This document shows, piece by piece, positions 1 to 7,585 of a stretch of DNA of 7,585 nt. The DNA is from Phycisphaerae bacterium (GTDB lineage Bacteria; Planctomycetota; Phycisphaerae; Sedimentisphaerales; SG8-4): NCBI GenBank assembly GCA_030613765.1, contig JAUWLI010000139.1:1-7585 (forward strand), written 5' to 3'. The position numbers were made by a program, and so were the translations under genes. The notes beneath the pieces are model-generated. The model was not told where the DNA came from, made no database searches, and worked only from the letters and a program-made list of their open reading frames with translations. Positions within the stretch are counted from its first letter, which is position 1; the number at the start of each line of letters is the position of its first letter.

Positions 1-59
1 TGGCGTTTTGATTAGGGGCGAGGGATTAGGGAGAAACCTTCTAAAAACCACATAAATAA

Positions 60-87
60 TTGCTATTTGAGAAAGGCTTGCTATACT
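60..87 (+). promoter_or_regulatory. Putative sigma70-type promoter for the 203-574 gene
   Basis: TTGCTA (60-65) and TATACT (82-87) are separated by 16 bp, a reasonable -35/-10 pair. Initiation would fall near 94 and give a leader of about 110 nt. That leader holds TTGGGG (97-102) pairing with CCCCAA (136-141) and the direct repeat AAGCAGC inside the loop. No known riboswitch class was recognised. Confidence 0.35.
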
Positions 88-202
88 ATTTTTACGTTGG
101 GGAAGCAGCACGACTAAGCAGCTATAATCGAGAGACCCCAAATTATATTACACTAAGTGGGCAGATGATAAAGTCTATTTCGATCTATCAGGTGAGTGAA
201 AG

Positions 203-574
203 ATGGGAATAGTAAGTTTTTTCAATAAATTGTTTGGAAGAAGAGACAGTATCCTGCCGTGCATTCAAACCCGTGAATGCCCTTACGAATACGAAAAGGA
301 GCCGGAGCGAGATATTGAGGGGATGCCTCAAGTAGAGGGTGACAGAAGAAGTTGTCCGGAATACGGCCATATTTGTCCGGCATTCATGGAAGATTTCGGA
401 CTGACTGTTGAGGAACTGGATATTCGAGCAGCTATTCATTGCGGAGGCTTGATGGATTATTTCATACAGGAAGGCACAGTTACAAAGGATTCGCCGGAGT
501 ACATAGAAGTAATGGAAAAGTATAAAGAAATGAAAGAGAAATACCCAAGGAATAAATATCCACAGTACTATTAG
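203..574 (+). CDS. Small cysteine-containing hypothetical protein
   Basis: A 123-residue protein that I do not recognise. The ATG at 203 is chosen because AGGTGAG (190-196) lies 6 nt upstream, a good ribosome-binding site. There is no convincing signal peptide; the short start MGIVSFFNKLFGRR is a basic amphipathic segment that could touch the membrane surface. Five cysteines are present (residues 20, 26, 51, 58, 80), in the settings CIQTREC and CPEYGHIC, so a bound metal or a disulfide pair is possible but not shown. The C-terminal third (about 95-118) is charged, helical and rich in Lys, Glu and Tyr. The gene appears monocistronic, with its own promoter and a 110-nt leader. It is followed 16 bp later by the remnant at 591-677. 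The codon pattern and SD support a real gene; the function is unknown. Confidence 0.7.
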   Translation: MGIVSFFNKLFGRRDSILPCIQTRECPYEYEKEPERDIEGMPQVEGDRRSCPEYGHICPAFMEDFGLTVEELDIRAAIHCGGLMDYFIQEGTVTKDSPEYIEVMEKYKEMKEKYPRNKYPQYY

Positions 575-590
575 ATATCTTAAATTCTTA

Positions 591-677
591 TACGACCTGG
601 CTCGAAAGATTGAATACGTTGAAATCGCGCACCAGCCGGGTTTCCAGGACGTCTTTGCAGACTGTATGGCGTTTTAG
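591..677 (+). pseudogene. Orphan C-terminal tail of an ASKHA/DUF4445-type ferredoxin activator (remnant)
   Basis: The + frame ending at TAG 675-677 reads 28 residues, including the stretches ARKIEYVEIA and PGFQDVFADCMAF. This closely resembles, from memory, the conserved end of DUF4445 proteins (RACo/RamA-like corrinoid-protein reactivators with a 2Fe-2S and an ASKHA domain), which finish with a pattern like 'kIeYvELa..p.FqeeFv.am.fp'. The frame upstream is open only for a few codons and then runs into the 203-574 gene, so the other roughly 600 residues expected of the family are missing. There is no start codon or RBS. The simplest reading is a gene remnant left after deletion or rearrangement. 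Chance similarity of a 28-residue string cannot be excluded without a search. Confidence 0.4.
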
Positions 678-811
678 AGCAAAAGTGCAACGATTTATTG
701 TTGCGTTTGGGGAAGATGGCGGGGATAATAGCAGAGACATAACAGGCAGGAAACTCACGGCTTTATGAAGGCTGAAAGATGAGCGAAGAAGAGAGAAAAG
801 GAATGGAACTT

Positions 812-841
812 CGTATCTCGTGAAGCGTGAAGCGTATCTCG
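812..841. repeat. Short direct repeat CGTATCTCG ... CGTATCTCG
   Basis: CGTATCTCG occurs at 812-820 and again at 833-841, a 21-bp period. Two tandem GTGAAGC units (820-833) lie between and overlap them. This kind of degenerate tandem word is common in spacers of some planctomycete and deltaproteobacterial genomes; no function is implied. Confidence 0.6.
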
Positions 842-913
842 CATAAGCACGAAATACGAATATCGAAATCCGAAACAAATTCGAATGTTCAAATTTTCAA
901 ATGACCAAAATGG

Positions 914-933
914 ATTCCCGCCTTCGCGGGAAT
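914..933. repeat. REP/dRS3-like palindrome
   Basis: ATTCCCGC (914-921), a CTTC loop (922-925) and GCGGGAAT (926-933) form a perfect 8-bp stem. The following TGACA matches the widespread intergenic repeat 'attcccgc..gcgggaatgaca'. The same core (ATTCCC-N8-GGGAAT) defines dRS3 in Neisseria. It is a dispersed repeat, not a gene terminator, since no T-run follows. Confidence 0.75.
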
Positions 934-1033
934 GACAGGTTTTTCGGTATGCAGTCGCACTCTGCAACACTACATTAACTGCGAAACAGTCTATAGTACT
1001 CAGGCTGGCTGGGGATGCGAGGGACGATTTCGC

Positions 1034-1063
1034 TTGACGGGAACCGGGGTTTTGGCATACAAT
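1034..1063 (+). promoter_or_regulatory. Putative sigma70-type promoter for the 1095-1379 gene
   Basis: TTGACG (1034-1039) and TACAAT (1058-1063) are separated by 18 bp; both boxes match the consensus at 5 of 6 positions. Initiation near 1070 would leave a leader of about 25 nt. Confidence 0.5.
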
Positions 1064-1094
1064 TAACGAGAGAGACTACGGGCTTAACTGCATT

Positions 1095-1379
1095 ATGAAC
1101 CGGAAACAGGAAATTATTCTCTGGGTAGGTTTGATTGTCATTCAGTTAATGATAGTCTTTCCGCCGGTAGGGCGGTTGCAGGGGGATTCTGAAAGTGTTG
1201 GAGGCCCGCCTGATAGCTCTATCGCTACCGGCTGGACACAAAGCTACGGCGTTATCACTCGCGATTATAAAAATATCAGGTTCGTCATGCTTGCTGCGCA
1301 GTTGATTATTGTCGCTGCGGTAACCGGCGGCTTTGTCTACGCCTATCGGATAACGGAGCAACAAGAAGATGGGCACTAA
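1095..1379 (+). CDS. Small two-helix membrane protein, uncharacterised
   Basis: A 94-residue protein with two clear hydrophobic segments (about 7-24 and 62-83). They are separated by a polar loop of roughly 38 residues rich in Gly, Ser and Asp, and followed by a short charged tail. The start 'MNRKQEIILWVGL', the 'FPPVGR' turn after helix 1 and the 'VAAVTGGFVYAYR' second helix resemble a small membrane-protein family I associate with planctomycetes. That is recognition by impression, without a name or function. A good promoter lies at 1034-1063, but there is no real Shine-Dalgarno sequence before the ATG (the upstream bases are GGGCTTAACTGCATT), so initiation is probably weak or of a non-SD type. 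It is convergent with the TRIC-family gene 29 bp away, and no strong terminator is visible between them. Confidence 0.7.
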   Translation: MNRKQEIILWVGLIVIQLMIVFPPVGRLQGDSESVGGPPDSSIATGWTQSYGVITRDYKNIRFVMLAAQLIIVAAVTGGFVYAYRITEQQEDGH

Positions 1380-1408
1380 TAGAATCCAGATGGCAGGCCA
1401 TTAAACAC

Positions 1409-2029
1409 TCAGGCCCCCTTGTTCCGAGTCATTAACGGCAGTGAAATCTTCCATTTGATTGCAGACAGGCGTAAGCCGAGCGTCACGATGATTGATGCGA
1501 TAACAGCCAATTCCCGGACTTGTATTTTAGTAATAGTGAGCGTTAGTACGATTGCGCCGCACAGCGATGCCGTGGCGTAGATTTCTTTGCGCAGGATCAG
1601 CGGAATTTCTCCCGATAACACGTCTCTAATCATACCGCCCACGACACCGGTCATAACTCCCATAACGACGGCAATGCCTGCCGGCATATCCAGAGCAAGG
1701 GCTTTTTCAGTTCCGAGCACCGTGAACACAGCTAATCCGACAGCATCCGCTACGGCCAGTAACATCGGTGGAAGCTTATACAATCGGGCGGTGTAAAACG
1801 TTGCGACCGCAGCCGCTACAGCCACGATAAGGTAGGTTTGGTCTGTTACCCAGAATACGGGACCGGTATCCAGAATCATATCTCGGAGCGTGCCGCCTCC
1901 CAGGGCAGTGACTGCCGCCAACACAACAACGCCGAAAAGATCCATCCGTCTTTTACCTGCGGCCAATGCCCCGCTGATTGCGAAAACGGCAACACCAAAA
2001 ATATCCAAAATATGAAGCAGAATTTGCAT
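1409..2029 (-). CDS. TRIC/UPF0126 family trimeric intracellular cation channel protein
   Basis: A 206-residue inner-membrane protein with about seven hydrophobic segments and the internal duplication typical of the UPF0126 (YadS/YicG, Pfam UPF0126/TRIC) family. The first repeat carries D9-x2-G12, 'AISGALAA' (17-24) and GGGTLRD (44-50). The second carries 'ADAVGLAVFTVLG' (94-106) and GGMIRD (131-136), followed by 'RKEIYATAS' (147-155). The glycine-rich kinks followed by Arg-Asp are the conserved pore-helix features of prokaryotic TRIC homologues, which form trimeric K+/Na+-permeable channels. Full family length is about 200-210 residues, so it is complete. The start at 2029 is forced: an in-frame TGA lies four codons upstream and no earlier ATG exists. 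There is no clear SD. It appears monocistronic, with its own promoter at 2098-2126. The physiological role in bacteria is uncertain. Confidence 0.93.
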   Translation of the reverse strand: MQILLHILDIFGVAVFAISGALAAGKRRMDLFGVVVLAAVTALGGGTLRDMILDTGPVFWVTDQTYLIVAVAAAVATFYTARLYKLPPMLLAVADAVGLAVFTVLGTEKALALDMPAGIAVVMGVMTGVVGGMIRDVLSGEIPLILRKEIYATASLCGAIVLTLTITKIQVRELAVIASIIVTLGLRLSAIKWKISLPLMTRNKGA

Positions 2030-2097
2030 TTTGTGGTTTTTTCAATCCAATGGTCGCGCAACAGCGGCGTGTCGAAGCCGCCTATCGAAACACATAT

Positions 2098-2126
2098 ACT
2101 ATCCGCAAAACCAAAACGCTCGTCAA
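2098..2126 (-). promoter_or_regulatory. Putative promoter of the TRIC-family gene
   Basis: On the minus strand TTGACG (2121-2126) and GATAGT (2098-2103) are 17 bp apart. The leader of about 60 nt contains a hairpin: AGCGGC (2063-2068) pairs with GCCGCC (2077-2082), with one G-U pair in the transcript. Confidence 0.45.
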
Positions 2127-2150
2127 TAGAATAATACCAATCTCAGCGTA

Positions 2151-2188
2151 TAGGGGAATTTCCTACAACAATTAAGGCAATTCCCCTA
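2151..2188. repeat. Inverted repeat TAGGGGAATT / AATTCCCCTA
   Basis: A perfect 10-bp inverted repeat: arms 2151-2160 and 2179-2188 with an 18-bp loop. The related element at 4604-4622 has the same arm core AGGGG/CCCCT but a 3-nt loop. In both copies the right arm continues CCCCTA(C/T)GACAA plus an A-rich tract. It marks the left end of the duplicated spacer module. Confidence 0.75.
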
Positions 2189-2200
2189 CGACAAAAAAAG

Positions 2201-2247
2201 GTTTAGACCCGATTTACAAAGATTCGCTTTCTATTTATACTTAAATA
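2201..2247. repeat. Duplicated spacer module, copy 1 core
   Basis: This 47-bp segment aligns without gaps to 4657-4703 at 38 of 47 positions; the longest shared block is GACCCGATTTACAA. A further box at 2341-2366 matches 4724-4749 at 20 of 26 positions and ends in the identical GGCTTTCTTGTT. Both copies are in the same orientation. In both, a promoter begins directly at the end of the final box. Confidence 0.7.
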
Positions 2248-2270
2248 ATCAGTTATAGGCAGAGCTGTCG

Positions 2271-2293
2271 GCCTTGCTTGCGAGGCGTTTTTT
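2271..2293 (+). terminator. Terminator-like hairpin inside module copy 1
   Basis: GCCTTG (2271-2276), loop CTTG and CGAGGC (2281-2286) form a 6-bp stem with one G-U pair, followed by G and six T. No plus-strand gene lies upstream. The hairpin sits in about 60 bp that copy 2 of the module lacks, so it may shield sRNA copy A from read-through or be incidental. Confidence 0.35.
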
Positions 2294-2364
2294 GGCAGCC
2301 GCGGTGGTACCATTTACAGAGACTAAAGCAACAGAGTAGAGTGTGCCGTATATTGGCTTTCTTG

Positions 2365-2392
2365 TTTATTTGTGAACAATTTATAGTAAAAT
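2365..2392 (+). promoter_or_regulatory. Promoter of sRNA copy A
   Basis: TTTATT (2365-2370), a 16-bp spacer and TAAAAT (2387-2392). The spacer shares 12 of 16 bases with that of copy B, including GAACAATT, and the spacing is identical. Conservation of the promoter together with the downstream hairpin supports it more than the match to consensus does. Confidence 0.5.
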
Positions 2393-2398
2393 AATAGA

Positions 2399-2497
2399 AC
2401 ATTTTCGAGCATCTTTGTATATAATAATAGAAGCATACTTACAGGGTTGGGTTTATCTCGCTTTCTCCTCTCCCTCCGCGCCCAACCCTGTTTTTTT
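2399..2497 (+). ncRNA. Putative small RNA, copy A (pyrimidine-loop hairpin)
   Basis: Predicted transcript of about 99 nt. The first 43 nt or so are A/U-rich and unstructured. A hairpin follows: CAGGGTTGGG (2442-2451) pairs with CCCAACCCTG (2481-2490), extendable by A2441-T2491, and a run of seven T (2491-2497) follows, as in an intrinsic terminator. The 29-nt loop is unusually long. Within it CGC (2459-2461) can pair with GCG (2478-2480), which would present TTTCTCCTCTCCCTCC (2462-2477), a pure pyrimidine tract complementary to Shine-Dalgarno sequences. C/U-rich loops of this kind are known to act as antisense seeds in other bacterial sRNAs. The loop is identical in copy B except for its last base. 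The upstream gene is on the opposite strand, so this is not simply a gene terminator. Expression and targets are unproven. Confidence 0.55.
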
Positions 2498-2575
2498 ATG
2501 CGCGGATATTCACTCGTTGTAGTTTTACATCTGAAATGGGGGCGATTTACGGAAGATGGCATCGCGGATTTTGCC

Positions 2576-2902
2576 CTATACACCGATCCCGATGAGGCAG
2601 AAACTCCAAAGCCAATAGATAACGAGTGCGATGTGGGCCGCGACGAAAGTGAGAGTGCGGCGCAGGCGAAAGGCTAATAAGCACAGCCCAATTGCCAGGG
2701 CGGTAATAATCAGGGAAACCAAAGCCATGTCAAGATCGCGCTTCGCGAGGAAGTGGAAGCCATAGTAGGGGGGTGCGGTAGGGGCCAGCCAAATCACCAT
2801 TGCCCTGGCGTGGGAAAGGCCCATCCAGCAAAGAAGAGAAAGCGCCCACAGCAGTGAGAAGTTCACAGCCAGACTAATAATGATAGCTCGTCTGGTAATC
2901 AT
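2576..2902 (-). CDS. Small membrane protein, third gene of minus-strand operon
   Basis: A 108-residue protein that I do not recognise. It has three strongly hydrophobic segments (about 6-27, 57-80 and 84-106) and a partly hydrophobic loop (31-50) containing the sequence APTAPPYYGFHF. A basic RRT turn at 81-83 separates the last two helices. The start at 2902 is supported by AAAGG 6 nt upstream; this RBS touches the stop codon of the preceding gene, leaving a 9-bp gap, so translational coupling is likely. It is the last gene of the operon read 3713 to 2576. No clear intrinsic terminator is visible downstream on the minus strand. It probably works in the inner membrane with the gene before it; nothing indicates a substrate. 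Confidence 0.72.
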   Translation of the reverse strand: MITRRAIIISLAVNFSLLWALSLLCWMGLSHARAMVIWLAPTAPPYYGFHFLAKRDLDMALVSLIITALAIGLCLLAFRLRRTLTFVAAHIALVIYWLWSFCLIGIGV

Positions 2903-2911
2903 AATCGGCCT

Positions 2912-3214
2912 TTACTTTCCACGAAGCCGCTTGATACCGCCGAACAAGACCAACACGAAAACACCCCATATAAGACTGTTAAAGAGGTAAGTCGGGATTT
3001 GAATCACCCACGACCAATACTCACTTAAGTCTGTTACAATAAAAGGCGTAAGAACCGGCACAGCCAATACAAAGGCCAGACCATGGGCACACTTTTCCCA
3101 TAGGGCTGTATGAACATCCGGATTGAAGTTGAACCAGTAGTACTGAAGCAAAACCACAGTCAAAAGGAAATGTAAAGGCACGAACAAGAACAGAAAAATC
3201 ATCTTATTTTTCAT
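2912..3214 (-). CDS. Small membrane protein, second gene of minus-strand operon
   Basis: A 100-residue protein with three hydrophobic segments (about 5-25, 43-61 and 75-93) and a short positively charged tail (IKRLRGK), consistent with a cytoplasmic C-terminus. The loop between helices 1 and 2 holds aromatic and acidic residues (QYYWFNFNPDVH). The start is fixed by GAGGGAG (complement of 3221-3227) 6 nt before the ATG. That SD is a 7-base perfect complement of CTCCCTC in the loop of both putative sRNAs (2470-2476 and 4429-4435). It lies 52 bp downstream of the lipoprotein gene and 9 bp upstream of the third gene. I do not recognise the family; an accessory or sensor membrane subunit is only a guess. 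Confidence 0.75.
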   Translation of the reverse strand: MKNKMIFLFLFVPLHFLLTVVLLQYYWFNFNPDVHTALWEKCAHGLAFVLAVPVLTPFIVTDLSEYWSWVIQIPTYLFNSLIWGVFVLVLFGGIKRLRGK

Positions 3215-3266
3215 TTATAGCTCCCTCAGTTAAAATCCGGCGACTCGTTGTTCGTCCCACGCTATG

Positions 3267-3713
3267 TCAGTTCCCGGAAACAATGTAATACCTAAGCCCC
3301 CTCGAAGTTTGGAGGTTGCCCATTCCCATCGTCAAGTTGTATGAGCCGTGTTCTTTGAAGTATCCTTCTTCGGCGTATGGCACACCTGATCCTACTTCGT
3401 TGGCTTTGCCGAAAACATACTTTACATCCGGATCATCTTTGCATATCTCAGGCCAGTTACAGGAGCCGGAACTCGGCCAGAGGATTTCCATTTCGTTGTA
3501 GTCTTTGGCTCGCCTGGCTTCCCAAAACGCCTCGCACACCGCTTCCGGTGAAGCCGGCCATTGCTGGCGCGTTGCTATGACATTTATAGCCTCAGCATGG
3601 GCCGCTTCCCGTGCATTCACTCCCGCACGCTTGCCGCATGATGGTAACAGTAAGAAGCTGACGAGACAAAAAAGAATGACAAGCTCTTTTGCATTATGCC
3701 TTACACTAATCAT
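3267..3713 (-). CDS. Putative lipoprotein with NTF2-like look, first gene of minus-strand operon
   Basis: A 148-residue exported protein. Basic N-terminus (1-9), hydrophobic core (11-23) and a lipobox-like LPSC with Cys26 as the probable lipidated residue; Pro at -2 is unusual, so cleavage by signal peptidase II is likely but not certain. After a polar linker, residues 53-80 (PASPEAVCEAFWEARRAKDY to LWP) resemble the first helices of NTF2/SnoaL-type domains. The end (VPYAEEGYFKEHGSYNLTMG to RYYIVSGN) reminds me of a planctomycete-specific lipoprotein group. Cys85 and Cys91 may form a disulfide. The start is decided by a perfect AAGGAGGT (complement of 3722-3729). A promoter at 3816-3844 gives a leader of about 96 nt. 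The two following membrane genes are close enough to be cotranscribed, so this may be the periplasmic partner of a membrane pair. The function is unknown. Confidence 0.75.
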   Translation of the reverse strand: MISVRHNAKELVILFCLVSFLLLPSCGKRAGVNAREAAHAEAINVIATRQQWPASPEAVCEAFWEARRAKDYNEMEILWPSSGSCNWPEICKDDPDVKYVFGKANEVGSGVPYAEEGYFKEHGSYNLTMGMGNLQTSRGLRYYIVSGN

Positions 3714-3760
3714 ATTTTGCTACCTCCTTATTTTCCATCAGTTTCTAACATTCGAAATCA

Positions 3761-3785
3761 ATGGTGCTGAGCCTGTCGAAGCGCG
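3761..3785. repeat. Dispersed intergenic word GGTGCTGAGCCTGTCGAAGC
   Basis: The string GCTGAGCCTGTCGAAGC lies within the leader of the operon. It matches a short repeat (TGAGC.TGTCGAA, with its complement TTCGACA.GCTCA) found many times in spacers of diverse environmental bacteria. It is recognised from memory; only one copy is in this window. Confidence 0.5.
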
Positions 3786-3815
3786 AGTCGAATGGGCTGG
3801 TTTGATTTGTAAGCT

Positions 3816-3844
3816 ATTGTATATGCCCTGGATCGGAAAGTAAA
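3816..3844 (-). promoter_or_regulatory. Putative promoter of the 3713-2576 operon
   Basis: On the minus strand TTTACT (3839-3844) and TACAAT (3816-3821) are 17 bp apart; the -10 matches at 5 of 6 positions. The start would be near 3809. The promoter partly abuts the 3' side of the broken gene, which ends at 3861. Confidence 0.4.
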
Positions 3845-3860
3845 GCCTGAAGAAGAAAAA

Positions 3861-4065
3861 CTATTCCTTGAACCAGAACACGTAAAACGGCTTTATCGAG
3901 CATATTATCAGCAATACCACGAACCACCAGATGCTGATATCCATTATTTCGGGTATCAGCTTTGCTATGAATAAGCACAAAGAACCCCGCAGCCCCCTGG
4001 GCAAGTTTGACGTCGAAAATATCAAGTCTTCTCACTCGCAGAGTCATTTCTTCAAAAAGTCCCAT
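3861..4065 (-). pseudogene. Two-helix membrane protein gene interrupted by a +1 frameshift
   Basis: Reading from ATG 4065 gives MGLFEEMTLRVRRLDIFDVK and then AQGAAGFFVL, after which the frame yields polar nonsense. Skipping one base at about 3972 restores a hydrophobic frame (FIAKLIPEIMDISIWWFVV, then LLIICSIKPFYVFWFKE) that ends at TAG 3861-3863. The restored product is about 67 residues with two helices (about 22-38 and 43-63). It resembles, by impression, a small planctomycete membrane family with a 'MG..eel...vk..d..D' start. The RBS AAGGAG sits 9 nt before ATG 4065, which favours it over the upstream in-frame ATG codons at 4071 and 4104. The length 3861-4065 is 68 codons plus one base, consistent with a single inserted base. 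This could be true decay, a sequencing or assembly error in an A/T-rich stretch, or less likely programmed shifting at CTT-A. Confidence 0.65.
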
Positions 4066-4323
4066 TTTCATAATCTCCTTTACATAATGATTATTTACCT
4101 TCATTTACTCTATTAGTCTGAATATCGGCCCAGATGGTTCATTTTTAGCTAAAATTGATTCTCAGGCCATCCCTGAATTTCGAGTCTCAGGAATAATCCG
4201 GGCCAAAAGCGGCAATCTCCGCCCTGGAGTTGCTCTTCGAGATACGCTTGGCGAGCAGTGAATTTGCTGCCGGTTCGAACCGCAGTGAGTTGAAAAAAAT
4301 TTTATATTTTTCGTATTTTTATC

Positions 4324-4351
4324 TTTACTTACGAACAATTCATGGTATAAT
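4324..4351 (+). promoter_or_regulatory. Promoter of sRNA copy B
   Basis: TTTACT (4324-4329), a 16-bp spacer and a perfect TATAAT (4346-4351). The same architecture and the GAACAATT spacer core occur before copy A. The A/T-rich tract just upstream (4287-4323) could act as an UP element. Confidence 0.6.
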
Positions 4352-4357
4352 GAAATA

Positions 4358-4457
4358 TAACATTAGGAGAAGTTGGTATACTTTTTTGGAAGTCATTTTG
4401 CAGGGTTGGGTTTATCTCGCTTTCTCCTCTCCCTCCGCACCCAGCCCTGTTTTTTTT
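4358..4457 (+). ncRNA. Putative small RNA, copy B (pyrimidine-loop hairpin)
   Basis: A paralogue of copy A, about 100 nt long. The leader (4358-4400) aligns only loosely with A, sharing ACATT, a TTG-TATA word and GAAG-CAT. The hairpin CAGGGTTGGG (4401-4410) / CCCAGCCCTG (4440-4449) keeps the same stem: the A-to-G change relative to copy A leaves a G-U pair, so pairing is preserved. The 29-nt loop (4411-4439) is identical except for its last base, and eight T (4450-4457) follow. Similarity continues for ATGCGC past the T-run. The pyrimidine tract is at 4421-4436. The nearest upstream gene is on the minus strand, so a free-standing RNA is more likely than a terminator of a missing gene. A weak frame (QGWVYLAFSSPSAP...) runs through the hairpin, but copy A has no start codon for it. 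Confidence 0.58.
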
Positions 4458-4463
4458 ATGCGC

Positions 4464-4500
4464 AAACTCACCAATCCACCAATTCTCTAACCTGCTAATA
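4464..4500. repeat. Degenerate low-complexity tract (GATTGGTGAG/TTAGAG words, minus orientation)
   Basis: The complement reads TTAGAGAATTGGTGGATTGG, the same word family as 5479-5521 (plus orientation) and 10-30 (GATTAGG twice). These short G/A/T tracts are typical degenerate spacer repeats; no function is seen. Confidence 0.45.
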
Positions 4501-4603
4501 ATTTCAAACAACAATAGCAAATTGCCCACAAGAGTTAACATTTAGCCAGCTTCGCTGAGATCAACCGGCGAGATACGAATGATGACTCCTTAAGGGCCCA
4601 GGC

Positions 4604-4622
4604 CATAGGGGATTCCCCTATG
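4604..4622. repeat. Palindrome CATAGGGG-ATT-CCCCTATG
   Basis: A perfect 8-bp stem (4604-4611 / 4615-4622) with a 3-nt loop. It is homologous to the inverted repeat at 2151-2188 and marks the left end of module copy 2. Confidence 0.75.
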
Positions 4623-4656
4623 ACAATAAAAGCAACTTACCTGATGATAAAAACAG

Positions 4657-4703
4657 GTTCTGACCCGATTTACAAGAATTCGTTTTCTGTTTACTATTAA
4701 ATA
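4657..4703. repeat. Duplicated spacer module, copy 2 core
   Basis: Matches 2201-2247 without gaps at 38 of 47 positions. The distal box 4724-4749 ends in GGCTTTCTTGTT, exactly as in copy 1, and runs into the -35 of the 4806 gene's promoter. Copy 2 lacks about 60 bp that copy 1 carries between core and distal box. Confidence 0.7.
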
Positions 4704-4747
4704 CCAGTAAAAGAGTGAATTGAGCGTGCCGGCAACGGGCTTTCTTG

Positions 4748-4776
4748 TTGAAGGCGGTTACATGAAGGACTATAGC
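4748..4776 (+). promoter_or_regulatory. Putative promoter of the 4806 gene
   Basis: TTGAAG (4748-4753) and TATAGC (4771-4776) are separated by 17 bp. The leader would be about 23 nt. The -35 overlaps the end of the conserved GGCTTTCTTGTT box. Confidence 0.35.
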
Positions 4777-4805
4777 AAATTTCAAAAATAGAGAGGGACT
4801 GAAAA

Positions 4806-5381
4806 ATGAAGACTTTCGTGAAAAAGGTAATTATGCCAGTCGTATTTGCGGCTCTTATATGGTTTACTGTGTCTGAACATGGTGGATTTGTCAATAACCT
4901 CCTGGACTACGTTTATGGTCAAAACTATTATTTTGTCGCAGCTCCGGATGAACCGGATTATACAGCGGAAACAACCGAGCAATATTGGATTGTGACCGGA
5001 GAATACAAGCCGGTCGCAGACCAATACGAAGCGGCAATCTTTCAACAACAAACCTGGAGTTCATACGAAGAAGACGAAGGCGAGGTTTTATACCTGGTGC
5101 TTGAAATAACAGAAGAAAACGGCAAAGACGGTCCGGATGCGTGCGCGCCCGAAGGGTGTTTTCACGACCATGAAATTGTCATGGCCCCCGAGGGCGCAAT
5201 GCATCCAACGATAAAGTTATCTCTAAATCCAATTGAATACTCATGTTTCATTGTCGACGGCGGCCCTTACTGCGGGTTCGAACAAGAAAGAACACCGGGA
5301 GTCGGCTATGACTTTATCCCCAAGTTGTTAGTGACTTACAAGCCTAACTTAACTCTAACTGTTTTCTCCAACCTAAGGTAG
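4806..5381 (+). CDS. Secreted or membrane-anchored four-cysteine hypothetical protein
   Basis: A 191-residue protein that I do not recognise. The basic N-terminus MKTFVKK followed by a hydrophobic stretch (8-22) without a clear cleavage site suggests an uncleaved signal anchor, leaving residues 23-191 outside the cytoplasm. The exported part is acidic and aromatic. It has four cysteines as two close pairs: Cys113/Cys118 (CAPEGC, followed by FHDHE) and Cys147/Cys156. These are probably disulfides, and HDHE could bind a metal. The segments 93-102 and 174-187 look like beta strands. The start is supported by GAGGGA (4793-4798) 7 nt upstream. It is a single-gene unit with a promoter inside the duplicated module and a strong intrinsic terminator about 30 bp after the stop. 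Confidence 0.75.
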   Translation: MKTFVKKVIMPVVFAALIWFTVSEHGGFVNNLLDYVYGQNYYFVAAPDEPDYTAETTEQYWIVTGEYKPVADQYEAAIFQQQTWSSYEEDEGEVLYLVLEITEENGKDGPDACAPEGCFHDHEIVMAPEGAMHPTIKLSLNPIEYSCFIVDGGPYCGFEQERTPGVGYDFIPKLLVTYKPNLTLTVFSNLR

Positions 5382-5412
5382 TCAACTTCAAAATATGTAA
5401 AGGCCGCCATTG

Positions 5413-5440
5413 GGAGCGTCGAAAGACGCTCCTTTTTTTT
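5413..5440 (+). terminator. Intrinsic terminator of the 4806 gene
   Basis: GGAGCGTC (5413-5420), a GAAA tetraloop (5421-5424) and GACGCTCC (5425-5432) form a perfect 8-bp G/C-rich stem followed directly by eight T (5433-5440). A textbook Rho-independent terminator. Confidence 0.93.
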
Positions 5441-5700
5441 CAGTCTTCGCTCCACGACTATTGGTAAGCAGACGGCGTGAGAGATTAGAGAATTAGAGAT
5501 TATAGATTGGTGATTAGTGAGTCGCCGGCCGTTATTATTTAGAATTGAATTTTCAGGAAAGATTCGATATTCTTTTAGAAATATCGGCCGGGGACTTTTT
5601 TGCCAGTGACACTGTTACCTTCTGTCATCTTTATGCCTTTTAAGGGTGAAGACAAGGTCTTTTATGAACAGATATCGAGTCTGTTTTGGAGAACAATGAA
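5441..5700. other. Spacer between the 4806 gene and the repeat lipoprotein
   Basis: Together with the terminator region this makes about 320 gene-free bases. It holds the low-complexity tract 5479-5521. It also has a nested inverted structure: CCGGCCG (5524-5530) and CGGCCGG (5585-5591) flank a hairpin CGATATT (5565-5571) / AATATCG (5580-5586). No confident promoter was found for the lipoprotein. Confidence 0.5.
5479..5521. repeat. Degenerate GATTAGAG/GATTAGTGA tract
   Basis: The words GAGATTAGAG, AATTAGAGAT, TAGATTGG and TGATTAGTGA follow one another, an imperfect tandem array of a roughly 9-10 bp unit. Related words occur at 10-30 and, inverted, at 4464-4500. Confidence 0.5.
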
Positions 5701-6120
5701 ATGAAACGTGTACTGTTAAACCCAGTGATGATTTTGGCGGCGTTTTGGTTGACCGGTTGTACGGTAGTTGTCCATGAGCCGAGAAGGCACCCTCGGAAGC
5801 CCGACGTGATTTGTGTTCCGGTGGACGGGACCATTGAAGAGATAAATGCGGTGGGCAAACTTTCTTTCGAGCCGCACAGACGGGATGCCTACAAGCGAAT
5901 TGCAAAGCGTCCGGGGCTGTCTGATGCCGCACAGGAGCATCTGGTTAACGCCGTCTTTGACAAATTGACATTTGAGCCTTCCAAGCGTGACGTGCTAATG
6001 GCGCTTATCTCAAATCCGTGCTTTAGTCCTGCGGGTCGGCAGGCGATTCTTTCGCAGTTGGACAGGCTCTTCTTCGAACCCACCAAGACTGAAATTCTTG
6101 AAGCGATAAGCCGCCGTTAG
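5701..6120 (+). CDS. Lipoprotein with three tandem ~35-residue repeats
   Basis: A 139-residue exported protein. The signal peptide MKRVLLNPVMILAAFWLTGC has a canonical lipobox LTGC (Cys20), so it should be lipidated. After a basic linker (26-34) the rest is three tandem repeats starting at KLSFEP (53), KLTFEP (88) and RLFFEP (122), a spacing of 35 and 34 residues. Repeats 1 and 2 share the pattern KL-FEP--RD, I--P--S-A, Q, L and F; the third is cut short and ends EILEAISRR. Each unit looks like a helix pair, so a small alpha-solenoid or docking scaffold in the periplasm is a reasonable inference. Similar repeat lipoproteins appear, by impression, in planctomycetes. ATG 5701 is preferred: GGAGA (5688-5692) lies 8 nt upstream. 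A TTG at 5686 is in frame but has no RBS. Confidence 0.78.
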   Translation: MKRVLLNPVMILAAFWLTGCTVVVHEPRRHPRKPDVICVPVDGTIEEINAVGKLSFEPHRRDAYKRIAKRPGLSDAAQEHLVNAVFDKLTFEPSKRDVLMALISNPCFSPAGRQAILSQLDRLFFEPTKTEILEAISRR

Positions 6121-6243
6121 CCCTGCGCCATCCAATCCCCTGATGCCGAGTCAGCAGCAGCCGCAACGTTTGACTGTAGCACGAAGGTTTTATCACTGGA
6201 AGTATTTCGATGCCCGTTGCTGGCAGATAGTATTTTATCGCGA
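6121..6243. other. Convergent spacer
   Basis: 123 bp between the two convergent stop codons. No hairpin with a T-run was found on either strand, so termination here may be Rho-dependent or the transcripts may overlap. Confidence 0.4.
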
Positions 6244-7305
6244 CTACACATCGAGGTTTTTGCTTTTGAGATTTTTATACCAGAGATTCAGGCCGGCTGA
6301 TTTCCTGGTGTACTCCTGGAATATAGCACGGGCACACACAAGAGGAACGAAAGCCATCATATACATCATAGCCAGGGAAAACGGAAACAACATGCTCTTA
6401 GGCAGAAAGAAAGGCAGGATCAACGTTAAGGGAAAAAGAACGCCGGAACTGATGACGATACCGGCTGAGGCATACTTGACGACCTCCAGCTTTGCTTCCA
6501 CAATCTGTTTTAGCTGAGATACCAGCTCGCCGAAACAATCCGCCAGTTTGCCGCTGATTTCATAAGGATGTATGACTGCAACCATCCCCCCGGGAACGAA
6601 AGGGACCGCCTGCAAAGCCGCGGCGAAACTCTGCCTTTGGTCAATTAGCTTAACAGAGGACAGCATTTGTTTCCGTAAGTACCTGTTGTCGATGGCCGAG
6701 ATGGAATCCAGAAACATATCACGCACATTAAGGGTACTATCGTAAGCGATTTCCAGACACACAAAGAACTCCATCAAGGCCATCTGCCTTGTCCATGTCC
6801 CTATAAAGGGAAGTTTTACGATTAGAGCATCCCTGTTGTACCTGAAGGTCTCCGAGTAGATGGGCAGCAGTACAATTACCGCAAGTATTGTCAATCTCAG
6901 GTATTGGAATTGGCCGAGGAAAATCCAGATGAATATCAGGCGGACTAAATACGCACCAATCACAAAGTGCCAGCATCGCTGCAGGCGATAGATTATTGGC
7001 TCGATCCGGTACATGAAGTCGGCTGCATCGCGCAGGGCCTTGGGCCATTTTCCGGTTTTCTGGCCGCACTTAAAAAGAGCCAGATAAAACTGCGGCAGGT
7101 CATATTTAGCAAGTTTTTGTTGGGTGTCACCTTCTCCGAGGAAAACTTCTTTTAAATCGACAACCAGTCTGCGATTGACGGGGCTGGCCAGGTGTTTGCC
7201 GGCAATATCGAAGGCTTTATCGAACATCAGACCGTCTTTAAGCATCTTGCCGAGATTGTCGGTAAAAACGGAAAGCTCAAGCCAGTTTCTGATCTTATAC
7301 TTCAG
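6244..7305 (-). CDS. Orphan type II secretion/type IV pilus F-domain (GspF/PilC-like) inner-membrane protein
   Basis: About 353 residues from the start chosen here. There are two T2SSF domains. The first (about 14-98) runs from FTDNLGKMLKDGL to GQKTGKWPKALRDAADFM, the equivalent of the family's 'GE.sG.L...L..la'. The second (about 176-275) runs from MEFFVCLEIAYDSTLNVRDM to HPYEISGKLADCFGELVSQL. Hydrophobic helices are at about 112-131 and 136-150 between the domains, and at about 279-301 and 305-324 at the end. GspF/PilC proteins are the polytopic platform that couples the assembly ATPase to pseudopilus or pilus growth. No ATPase, pilin or other secretion gene is in the window. Start: the frame is open to ATG 7395, but a good promoter lies inside that extension (7352-7379), and GGGAGA (complement of 7313-7318) is placed 8 nt before CTG 7305, just before KYKIRNWLELS. 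TTG codons at 7320 and 7326 are alternatives. Confidence 0.85.
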   Translation of the reverse strand: MKYKIRNWLELSVFTDNLGKMLKDGLMFDKAFDIAGKHLASPVNRRLVVDLKEVFLGEGDTQQKLAKYDLPQFYLALFKCGQKTGKWPKALRDAADFMYRIEPIIYRLQRCWHFVIGAYLVRLIFIWIFLGQFQYLRLTILAVIVLLPIYSETFRYNRDALIVKLPFIGTWTRQMALMEFFVCLEIAYDSTLNVRDMFLDSISAIDNRYLRKQMLSSVKLIDQRQSFAAALQAVPFVPGGMVAVIHPYEISGKLADCFGELVSQLKQIVEAKLEVVKYASAGIVISSGVLFPLTLILPFFLPKSMLFPFSLAMMYMMAFVPLVCARAIFQEYTRKSAGLNLWYKNLKSKNLDV

Positions 7306-7312
7306 ATGACTA

Positions 7313-7318
7313 TCTCCC
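7313..7318 (-). promoter_or_regulatory. Shine-Dalgarno GGGAGA that may decide the GspF-like start
   Basis: The only good ribosome-binding site near the 5' end of the GspF-like frame. It is correctly spaced for a CTG codon at 7303-7305 and lies downstream of the predicted transcription start near 7345. CTG initiation is rare, so this is a proposal. Confidence 0.4.
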
Positions 7319-7351
7319 AAAGCCAAGTCGTTTATCCGGTCGAATCTATAT

Positions 7352-7379
7352 ATTATAGTATAGTCTGCATTTGGTTCAA
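7352..7379 (-). promoter_or_regulatory. Putative promoter of the GspF-like gene
   Basis: On the minus strand TTGAAC (7374-7379), a 16-bp spacer and a perfect TATAAT (7352-7357). Initiation near 7345 gives a leader of about 40 nt to CTG 7305. It overlaps the first codons of the longest open frame, which argues that the ATG at 7395 is not used. Confidence 0.55.
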
Positions 7380-7569
7380 CTATACAAATAATCAATATTT
7401 AGCCGCTTTTCTTATGCCTTCCGAGATACACTTTCCGAGAAGCAAGCCAAAAAGCTTGAATCTTCAAGACATATTCGATATTCTATACGAAATGAACCTT
7501 AGCTAACTCTTATTTGGTTCGATAAAAGAACGTCTCAGAATTTTCATGTAAAGAAATTAGGAGGCAAAA

Positions 7570-7585
7570 ATGAATTCGAAAAGGT
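7570..7585 (+). CDS. 5' end of a gene cut by the window edge
   Basis: ATG 7570 follows AGGAGG (7559-7564) with 5 nt spacing, an essentially perfect ribosome-binding site. Only MNSKR is visible. It is divergent from the GspF-like gene; if the pair is functionally related this could be a pilin or pseudopilin-type gene, but nothing in five residues shows that. Confidence 0.6.

Follow-up and report, generated by a model that had tools for sequence, protein, structure and literature searches.

Sibling small RNAs (sRNAs) with C/U-rich loops are a known kind of bacterial RNA. RepG operates in a bacterium without Hfq, and MicA and RybB are small, sigma-E-dependent stress sRNAs that depend on Hfq. The second stem-loop of RepG from Helicobacter pylori suffices on its own and its C/U-rich terminator loop is active (PMC8295292). 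LhrC1-5 of Listeria monocytogenes are described as multicopy sRNAs with CU-rich (UCCC) sites that include the terminator loop; Hfq is dispensable for lapB, and blocking of the Shine-Dalgarno (SD) sequence is predicted (PMC4132741). For the Planctomycetes-Verrucomicrobia-Chlamydiae (PVC) group, the table of one review holds 8 distinct annotated sRNAs (PMC9029176). Here we describe two hairpin elements, copies A and B, in a 7,585-nt stretch of a Phycisphaerae bacterium ('the window'; assembly GCA_030613765.1, contig JAUWLI010000139.1, positions 1 to 7,585, forward strand). These repeats belong to a real sRNA family, which is itself new. Computation establishes the gene family, its stem pairing and RNA strand, the conservation of its loop, the positions of its promoter boxes and the chaperone counts of its hosts.

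As in RepG, the elements end in a terminator hairpin with a C/U-rich loop, which is the active part in RepG. RepG targets a homopolymeric G-repeat in the tlpB mRNA, whereas here only one G-run gene has emerged as a lead; the present family also has several sibling genes per genome and a conserved loop part that is not anti-SD. Multicopy siblings with a CU-rich terminator loop are shared with LhrC. However, LhrC carries its three short, redundant motifs on two stem-loops. Each element here is a single hairpin whose one loop is long and conserved, so the LhrC architecture of two stem-loops with three UCCC motifs is absent. MicA and RybB are brought to mind by the extracytoplasmic-function (ECF)-style GAACYTT-16-CGTA boxes of one subtype (type 3, below), although their sequences are unrelated and the window copies keep the GAAC and not the GTA part. 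Among the papers searched on small RNAs of planctomycetes, Phycisphaerae and Sedimentisphaerales, none describes such a family, judged by titles. It is perhaps the first family of sRNAs to be described from this order.

Two hairpins with one loop

Copies A and B are hairpins of the terminator type on the plus strand, and their 27-nt loops are identical:

2442-2490, plus strand: copy A hairpin, 11-bp stem (2442-2452/2480-2490) and 27-nt loop
2453-2479, plus strand: copy A loop, pyrimidine-rich, TTATCTCGCTTTCTCCTCTCCCTCCGC, shared unchanged by copy B and by the orthologue from a related metagenome-assembled genome (MAG)
2491-2497, plus strand: copy A T-run, a predicted intrinsic terminator tail, followed by ATGCGC at 2498-2503
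4401-4449, plus strand: copy B hairpin, 11-bp stem (4401-4411/4439-4449) and 27-nt loop (4412-4438)
4450-4457, plus strand: copy B T-run, followed by ATGCGC at 4458-4463

Both lie within a direct repeat 140 nt long, whose two units are 74% identical. The pair of elements reported in an initial annotation of this DNA is confirmed. That annotation gave the loop 29 nt with a difference at the last base. The identity of the loop stands, but the last base is better read as part of an eleventh stem pair (U-G in copy A, U-A in copy B), leaving a loop of 27 nt. As 61-nt hairpins the copies have stability z scores of -5.5 (A) and -5.2 (B), with none of 200 shuffles equally stable. When the leader is included, copy A retains a z score of -3.65 (0/200 shuffles) and copy B reaches just -1.24 (22/200). 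For both copies, the gene called upstream lies on the minus strand, in agreement with the earlier statement that neither follows a plus-strand gene.

A family within one planctomycete order

An exact search for the 22-nt loop core, with one genome per species, returned 26 matches on 24 stretches from nine MAGs titled Phycisphaerae or Planctomycetota. One more near-copy was present in those loci at up to 4 mismatches. The 30 copies gathered (two from the window, 27 from MAG loci including the near-copy and one viral) form a seed set whose loop invariance is built in, because the search pattern fixes the loop and leaves only stem and flanks free. A gapless alignment, A2, comprises 23 of the 30 copies in 16 distinct rows; it omits five copies in another register (two in L006 and those in L014, L017 and L024), the copy in L012 and one truncated by a contig end.

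The covariance model built from A2 (R1) gave 36 matches in the nine genomes at E ≤0.01, and, in a sample of 298 genomes of the class, had matches in 23, variant loops included. A second model, R2, was built from 71 matches (49 distinct). At E ≤1e-3 it matched 81 of 161 genomes of the order, which we take to be Sedimentisphaerales, with up to 13 matches per genome. In a sample of the phylum it matched one genome of 294, the query genome itself, and all 23 class genomes with R1 matches recur among the 81. Copy A scores 76.3 bits with R1 and 74.5 bits with R2, and copy B 76.0 and 73.9 bits. Planctomycete homologues of both copies, for which the initial annotation had proposed a search and a count per genome, are thus plentiful in the order.

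That annotation did not recognise the family, and Rfam (4227 families) likewise has no match to it, either at the window elements with E values up to 5 or in seven loci carrying types 1 to 3. The only Rfam hit in the window is FtrB at 852-958, far under its gathering score.

The copies fall into three types. The sister type 3 (24 copies) has a GGGCTGRGGT stem and a CUCCUCUUUUCCUCCCUCC-like loop, and lies near type 1 in the fetched loci. Examples are:

L130, 2634-2678: type-3 copy
L066, 1804-1845: type-3 copy
L083, 734-782: type-3 copy

Stem pairing identifies the RNA strand

The stems vary in sequence and stay paired. In A2, 97.7% of the stem cells are paired, compared with 54.8% in shuffled alignments, and the covariation score is 1.027 versus 0.282; neither value was reached in 500 shuffles. 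The R2 set (71 matches, 49 distinct) behaves in the same way, with a covariation score of 0.951 versus 0.235 when shuffled (0/500). Compensatory changes therefore keep the pairs, as expected of a structured RNA, and the further homologues with stem covariation whose absence was to count against an RNA family do exist.

Across 108 distinct elements the stem pairs comprise 1100 Watson-Crick, 57 G-U, 6 A-C and 25 other combinations, in a pairing register set by Watson-Crick pairs only. An earlier register that favoured G-U gave 61 G-U and 7 A-C. Since G-U wobbles outnumber A-C mismatches 57 to 6, the plus strand reads as the RNA strand; the same imbalance argues against a hairpin that acts only as DNA.

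The loop is the conserved part

Type-1 and type-2 copies together (144) have the loop consensus UAUCUCGCUUU(Y)UCCUCUCCCUCCGC. One base fills at least 88% of the copies in 24 of 26 loop columns, and at least 94% in 18; these copies were found with loop-trained models, so strongly divergent loops are under-counted. The chief variation is the length of the U-run and its last base. Type 3 has a related yet distinct loop.

A comparison with the closest relative of the window, 90-91% identical over the main matching stretches, gives a view of the same question at shorter range. Neither copy has a single change in the 27 loop positions, whereas the leaders differ by 16-21% and the stems, leaders and other alignable neighbouring segments by 9-29%. 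The region upstream of copy A is not alignable to the relative at full length. One pair in the copy B stem, U-A in the window, is G-C in the relative, a compensatory change. Selection on the loop, suggested earlier from the two window copies alone, is borne out by this contrast and by conservation across the 144 copies. The loop is probably conserved by its grip on ribosome-binding sites or on a protein.

A TTTT run follows within 10 nt of the hairpin in 58 of 81 type-1, 43 of 62 type-2 and 23 of 24 type-3 copies. The flanks of type 1 hold two further recurrent motifs that termination does not explain, namely TGCGC after the T-run, within 25 nt (42/81), and GCA in the 12 nt that precede the stem (55/81).

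Candidate promoters

Each window copy is preceded by two promoter candidates:

2365-2392, plus strand: copy A upstream candidate P1, TTTATT-16-TAAAAT, about 8/12 by eye, containing GAACAATT at 2374-2381
2420-2425, plus strand: copy A proximal -10-like box TATAAT, candidate P2, within the type-1 -10 peak at -30 to -21
4324-4351, plus strand: copy B candidate P1, TTTACT-16-TATAAT with an extended TG, 10/12 by scan, containing GAACAATT at 4333-4340
4377-4382, plus strand: copy B proximal -10-like box TATACT, candidate P2, within the type-1 -10 peak

The initial annotation had assigned both copies one promoter with a 16-bp spacer and GAACAATT. This holds well for copy B; the copy A version, by contrast, reaches its approximate score only by eye and was not reported by the scan. 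The RNAs of the window may start nearer the stem than that annotation had it, about 10 nt before it, because the second -10-like box sits where the -10 boxes of related copies cluster.

Box positions in the family are informative, with the proviso that all counts come from related, non-independent loci and so overstate the number of events. Of 55 type-2 copies, 30 have a TTGACA-like box at -60 to -41, over a background of about 3 per 10 nt, and 28 have a TATAAT-like box at -40 to -21 (background about 2.5). Among 81 type-1 copies, TATAAT-like boxes occur at -30 to -21 in 39 (background about 7) and GAAC at -70 to -61 in 20 (background about 3). Type 3 differs: GAAC is found at -50 to -41 in 16 of 23 copies (background <1) and there is no excess of TATAAT (8/23 versus 11/23 in the background window). 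Its consensus, GAACYTTT...CGTA with a spacing of about 16 nt, is in the style of ECF sigma promoters. In the window, both copies have GAAC at -68 as well as the proximal -10-like box; the GTA part is missing. An ECF promoter score without fixed positions showed no enrichment (6.98 versus 6.71), and the ECF-style signal emerged only once positions were fixed. Many copies, though not all, thus have boxes at a fixed distance together with a terminator, as expected of independently transcribed intergenic sRNAs, though this is no evidence of transcription as such.

A chaperone-free pairing model

We favour, with a probability of roughly 55%, a model in which the elements are independent sRNA genes whose loop pairs without a chaperone with ribosome-binding sites and so lowers translation. 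Each gene would produce a plus-strand RNA of about 65-100 nt from its own promoter, ending at the U-run of the hairpin, so that the RNA would be little more than a single terminator hairpin displaying a long C/U-rich loop. Siblings with a common loop and differing stems, leaders and promoters would let various signals yield one effector. Purine-rich ribosome-binding sites (AGGAGA-type SD sequences, perhaps also G-runs) in several mRNAs would be the partners of the loop, bound with no help from Hfq or ProQ, and this pairing would lower the translation of those mRNAs. Transcription, the transcript ends, pairing at the SD region and repression are all proposed here from sequence.

The chaperone counts fit this model. 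No Hfq was found in any of the order's 161 genomes, against 5 positives among 14 control genomes, and a ProQ-domain protein was found in only one of the 161, G361 (L259). An Hfq-less and nearly ProQ-less lineage offers a natural test of how sRNAs act without those chaperones. Target prediction covered 796 kb of genome G002 with 582 called genes, about 14% of that one genome. A GGAG peak 6-15 nt before its starts indicates that SD sequences are used; AGGAGA, the commonest SD hexamer, occurs 54 times in start regions, 6 times in gene-interior windows and 9 times further upstream. The loop segment UCUCCU is its complement, so the host does use SD sequences that the loop could pair with.

A number of results weigh against the model. 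Of 60 mononucleotide shuffles of the loop, 41 matched or bettered its mean duplex energy with the start regions of the 582 genes, as did 42 of 60 dinucleotide shuffles. Nor did the loop outdo its own reversed sequence at starts (-11.8 versus -11.5), and gene-interior windows were not clearly worse. In an antisense scan of the 796 kb the family's own copies ranked on top and the next two hits fell inside the shuffled range, and linked neighbour genes showed no consistent pairing as cis targets. UAUCUCGC, the conserved 5' stretch of the loop, has no anti-SD character, and 92 of 144 loops read UUUUCC, which loses the exact complement to AGGAGA, versus 40 with UUUCUCC. Three findings touch the gene family itself: the copy in L012 has the exact loop on a broken stem (7/11 pairs); all 11 pairs of A2 have changed on both sides, but 123 of 500 shuffles reach the same; and, of the 69 copies that follow a same-strand gene, 17 are no more than 60 nt from its end. 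The earlier suggestion that the loop blocks ribosome-binding sites is therefore not established, as the 582 start regions pair no better with it than with shuffled or reversed loops.

Individual genes supply leads. A prepilin-like gene, identified by eye, has a G-run and GUGAGAUAC just before its AUG in three of nine genomes, with a G-run of varying length:

L311 (G005): prepilin-like gene
L317 (G001): prepilin-like gene
L318 (G002): prepilin-like gene

Its leader complements both loop parts at -22 to -29 kcal/mol, and 33-40 of 200 shuffled loops pair equally well. As a lead only, it is a possible target of the loop in the manner of RepG. Across the nine genomes, the pattern GGGGNGAGATA precedes ATG 15 times versus 6 for its reverse. 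The 7-mer YGAGATA is in 20 start regions versus 8 elsewhere, several of them, by eye, inside a GAGATACGAA-type genomic repeat. SD-anchored patterns in the nine genomes gave 28 hits versus 13 for the reversed control, and 21 versus 13; three of each are the family's own copies. Genes that recur with these patterns, named by eye where they have a name, are cupin-like (3 genomes), an 87-aa frame (2) and PQQ-like (2). The cupin-like gene, of 116 aa (L260, L263 and L269), has one and the same ribosome-binding stretch, AGAGGAGAAA, in its three genomes and is a weak target lead.

Alternative readings of the hairpins

On balance, chaperone-free pairing with SD sequences or G-runs appears to be the best mechanism, moderately ahead of a loop that serves a real RNA as a protein-binding site and not as an antisense seed, such that the RNA would carry, or act as a decoy for, an RNA-binding protein or a ribosomal component. 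We hold this second possibility only tentatively. The near-uniformity of the loop columns favours it, as do the lack of any excess in predicted pairing over shuffled loops and the part of the loop without SD complementarity; the conserved loop also exceeds the usual length of a seed. Against it count the Hfq and ProQ figures given above and the long conserved single-stranded regions that multi-target sRNAs can also carry. The length of the conserved loop, the differing promoters of the siblings and the phage copies described below make the choice between seed and protein site directly testable. A broader variant, which we consider doubtful, would make the family a clade-specific RNA effector common to host and phage, with a fixed loop of about 25 nt, interchangeable stems and varied promoters of sigma-70 or ECF type. 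It would act in trans through a loop-binding protein or ribosomal contact and not by ordinary seed pairing, with no known chaperone; phage copies would trigger or hijack the response, and one copy would be ancestrally tied to a solitary chromosomal gene for the terminase large subunit.

Ordinary intrinsic terminators or attenuators of adjacent genes would account for the T-runs and for those copies that closely follow a same-strand gene. This is improbable, given the gene neighbourhood of the family. For the 169 distinct copies, of which 144 have both neighbours called by crude gene calling, 79 of the 144 have their upstream gene on the opposite strand and 65 on the same strand, so the units are not tied to upstream genes. 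The prospect raised beforehand, of homologues found only directly behind plus-strand genes, has thus not materialised. Terminator loops, moreover, need no particular sequence, whereas this loop is conserved, and the promoter boxes are locked in position. With many copies, paired stems, a conserved loop and a mostly intergenic setting (32 of 169 copies lie within a mechanically called frame of at least 90 aa), the elements match the paralogous small RNA genes that the initial annotation took them to be. Still less probable is a mobile DNA hairpin that phages or integrases would have spread as a site of recombination or attachment. The many copies per genome and those in viruses would suit it, but the stems vary and remain paired with G-U tolerated and A-C rare, the T-run is one-sided, and one copy has been inherited together with its neighbourhood in many genomes. 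A conserved short peptide whose coding frame runs through the loop is hardly credible: mechanical open frames do span both window copies, yet one-base differences in loop length that would shift the frame are common (37 and 6 of 144 copies gapped, in adjacent columns) and no common start codon is visible by eye.

A terminase-linked locus and viral copies

In a recurrent host locus, an RNA copy lies downstream of, and convergent with, a solitary gene for the terminase large subunit. The protein matches PF17289 in two of three representatives and PHROG 2 in all three, and is found in 124 of the 161 genomes, with one match in most. Among the genomes listed, which are 74 of the 81 RNA genomes, 62 have both features; in 36 these are at most 6 kb apart, 35 of them with the two in opposite orientation. 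In the regions downstream of the terminase gene in 20 genomes (19 without an R2 match, and G143 with one), no copy was present in 19 and one diverged copy, L233, in the other. The linkage of terminase and RNA may reflect shared ancestry of the locus. None of the examined neighbours of the terminase gene (for example L013, 1792-3342) is a structural phage gene, and the terminase gene is possibly part of a gene transfer agent or a domesticated packaging motor. Several terminase loci also have an M78-peptidase/HTH regulator, a small unknown protein and type-1 or type-3 RNAs nearby.

Viral loop variants occur on five IMG/VR contigs that represent four viruses, and all five are R2 matches at 53-69 bits. 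A degenerate pyrimidine pattern in the viral contigs pointed to ten further stretches, none of which was a model match. Two of the contigs, L244 and L246, share one stretch, in which a tRNA-Met gene follows the RNA at a distance of 6 nt; L246 carries terminase and portal genes. One viral copy lies near an integrase. The loop is kept on other stems in L247 and L025, and the stem of L247, a contig of 63% G+C, is quite different in sequence. In L246 (10421-10549), the RNA comes directly after what appears by eye to be the short start of a cytosine-methyltransferase-like gene.

Other features of the window

A second repeat pair, D2, joins 2174-2247 with 4630-4703 and 2334-2366 with 4717-4749, and includes a promoter-like box, TTTACA-17, close to each of the RNA genes. 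As a further sRNA family D2 was rejected: it has no stable fold and, among the fetched loci, is present in just the window and its closest relative. No other frame of the window has a Pfam match above the Pfam cut-off apart from two minus-strand genes, a Gly_transporter gene (PF03458) at 1409-2029 and a T2SSF-type gene at 6244-7395.

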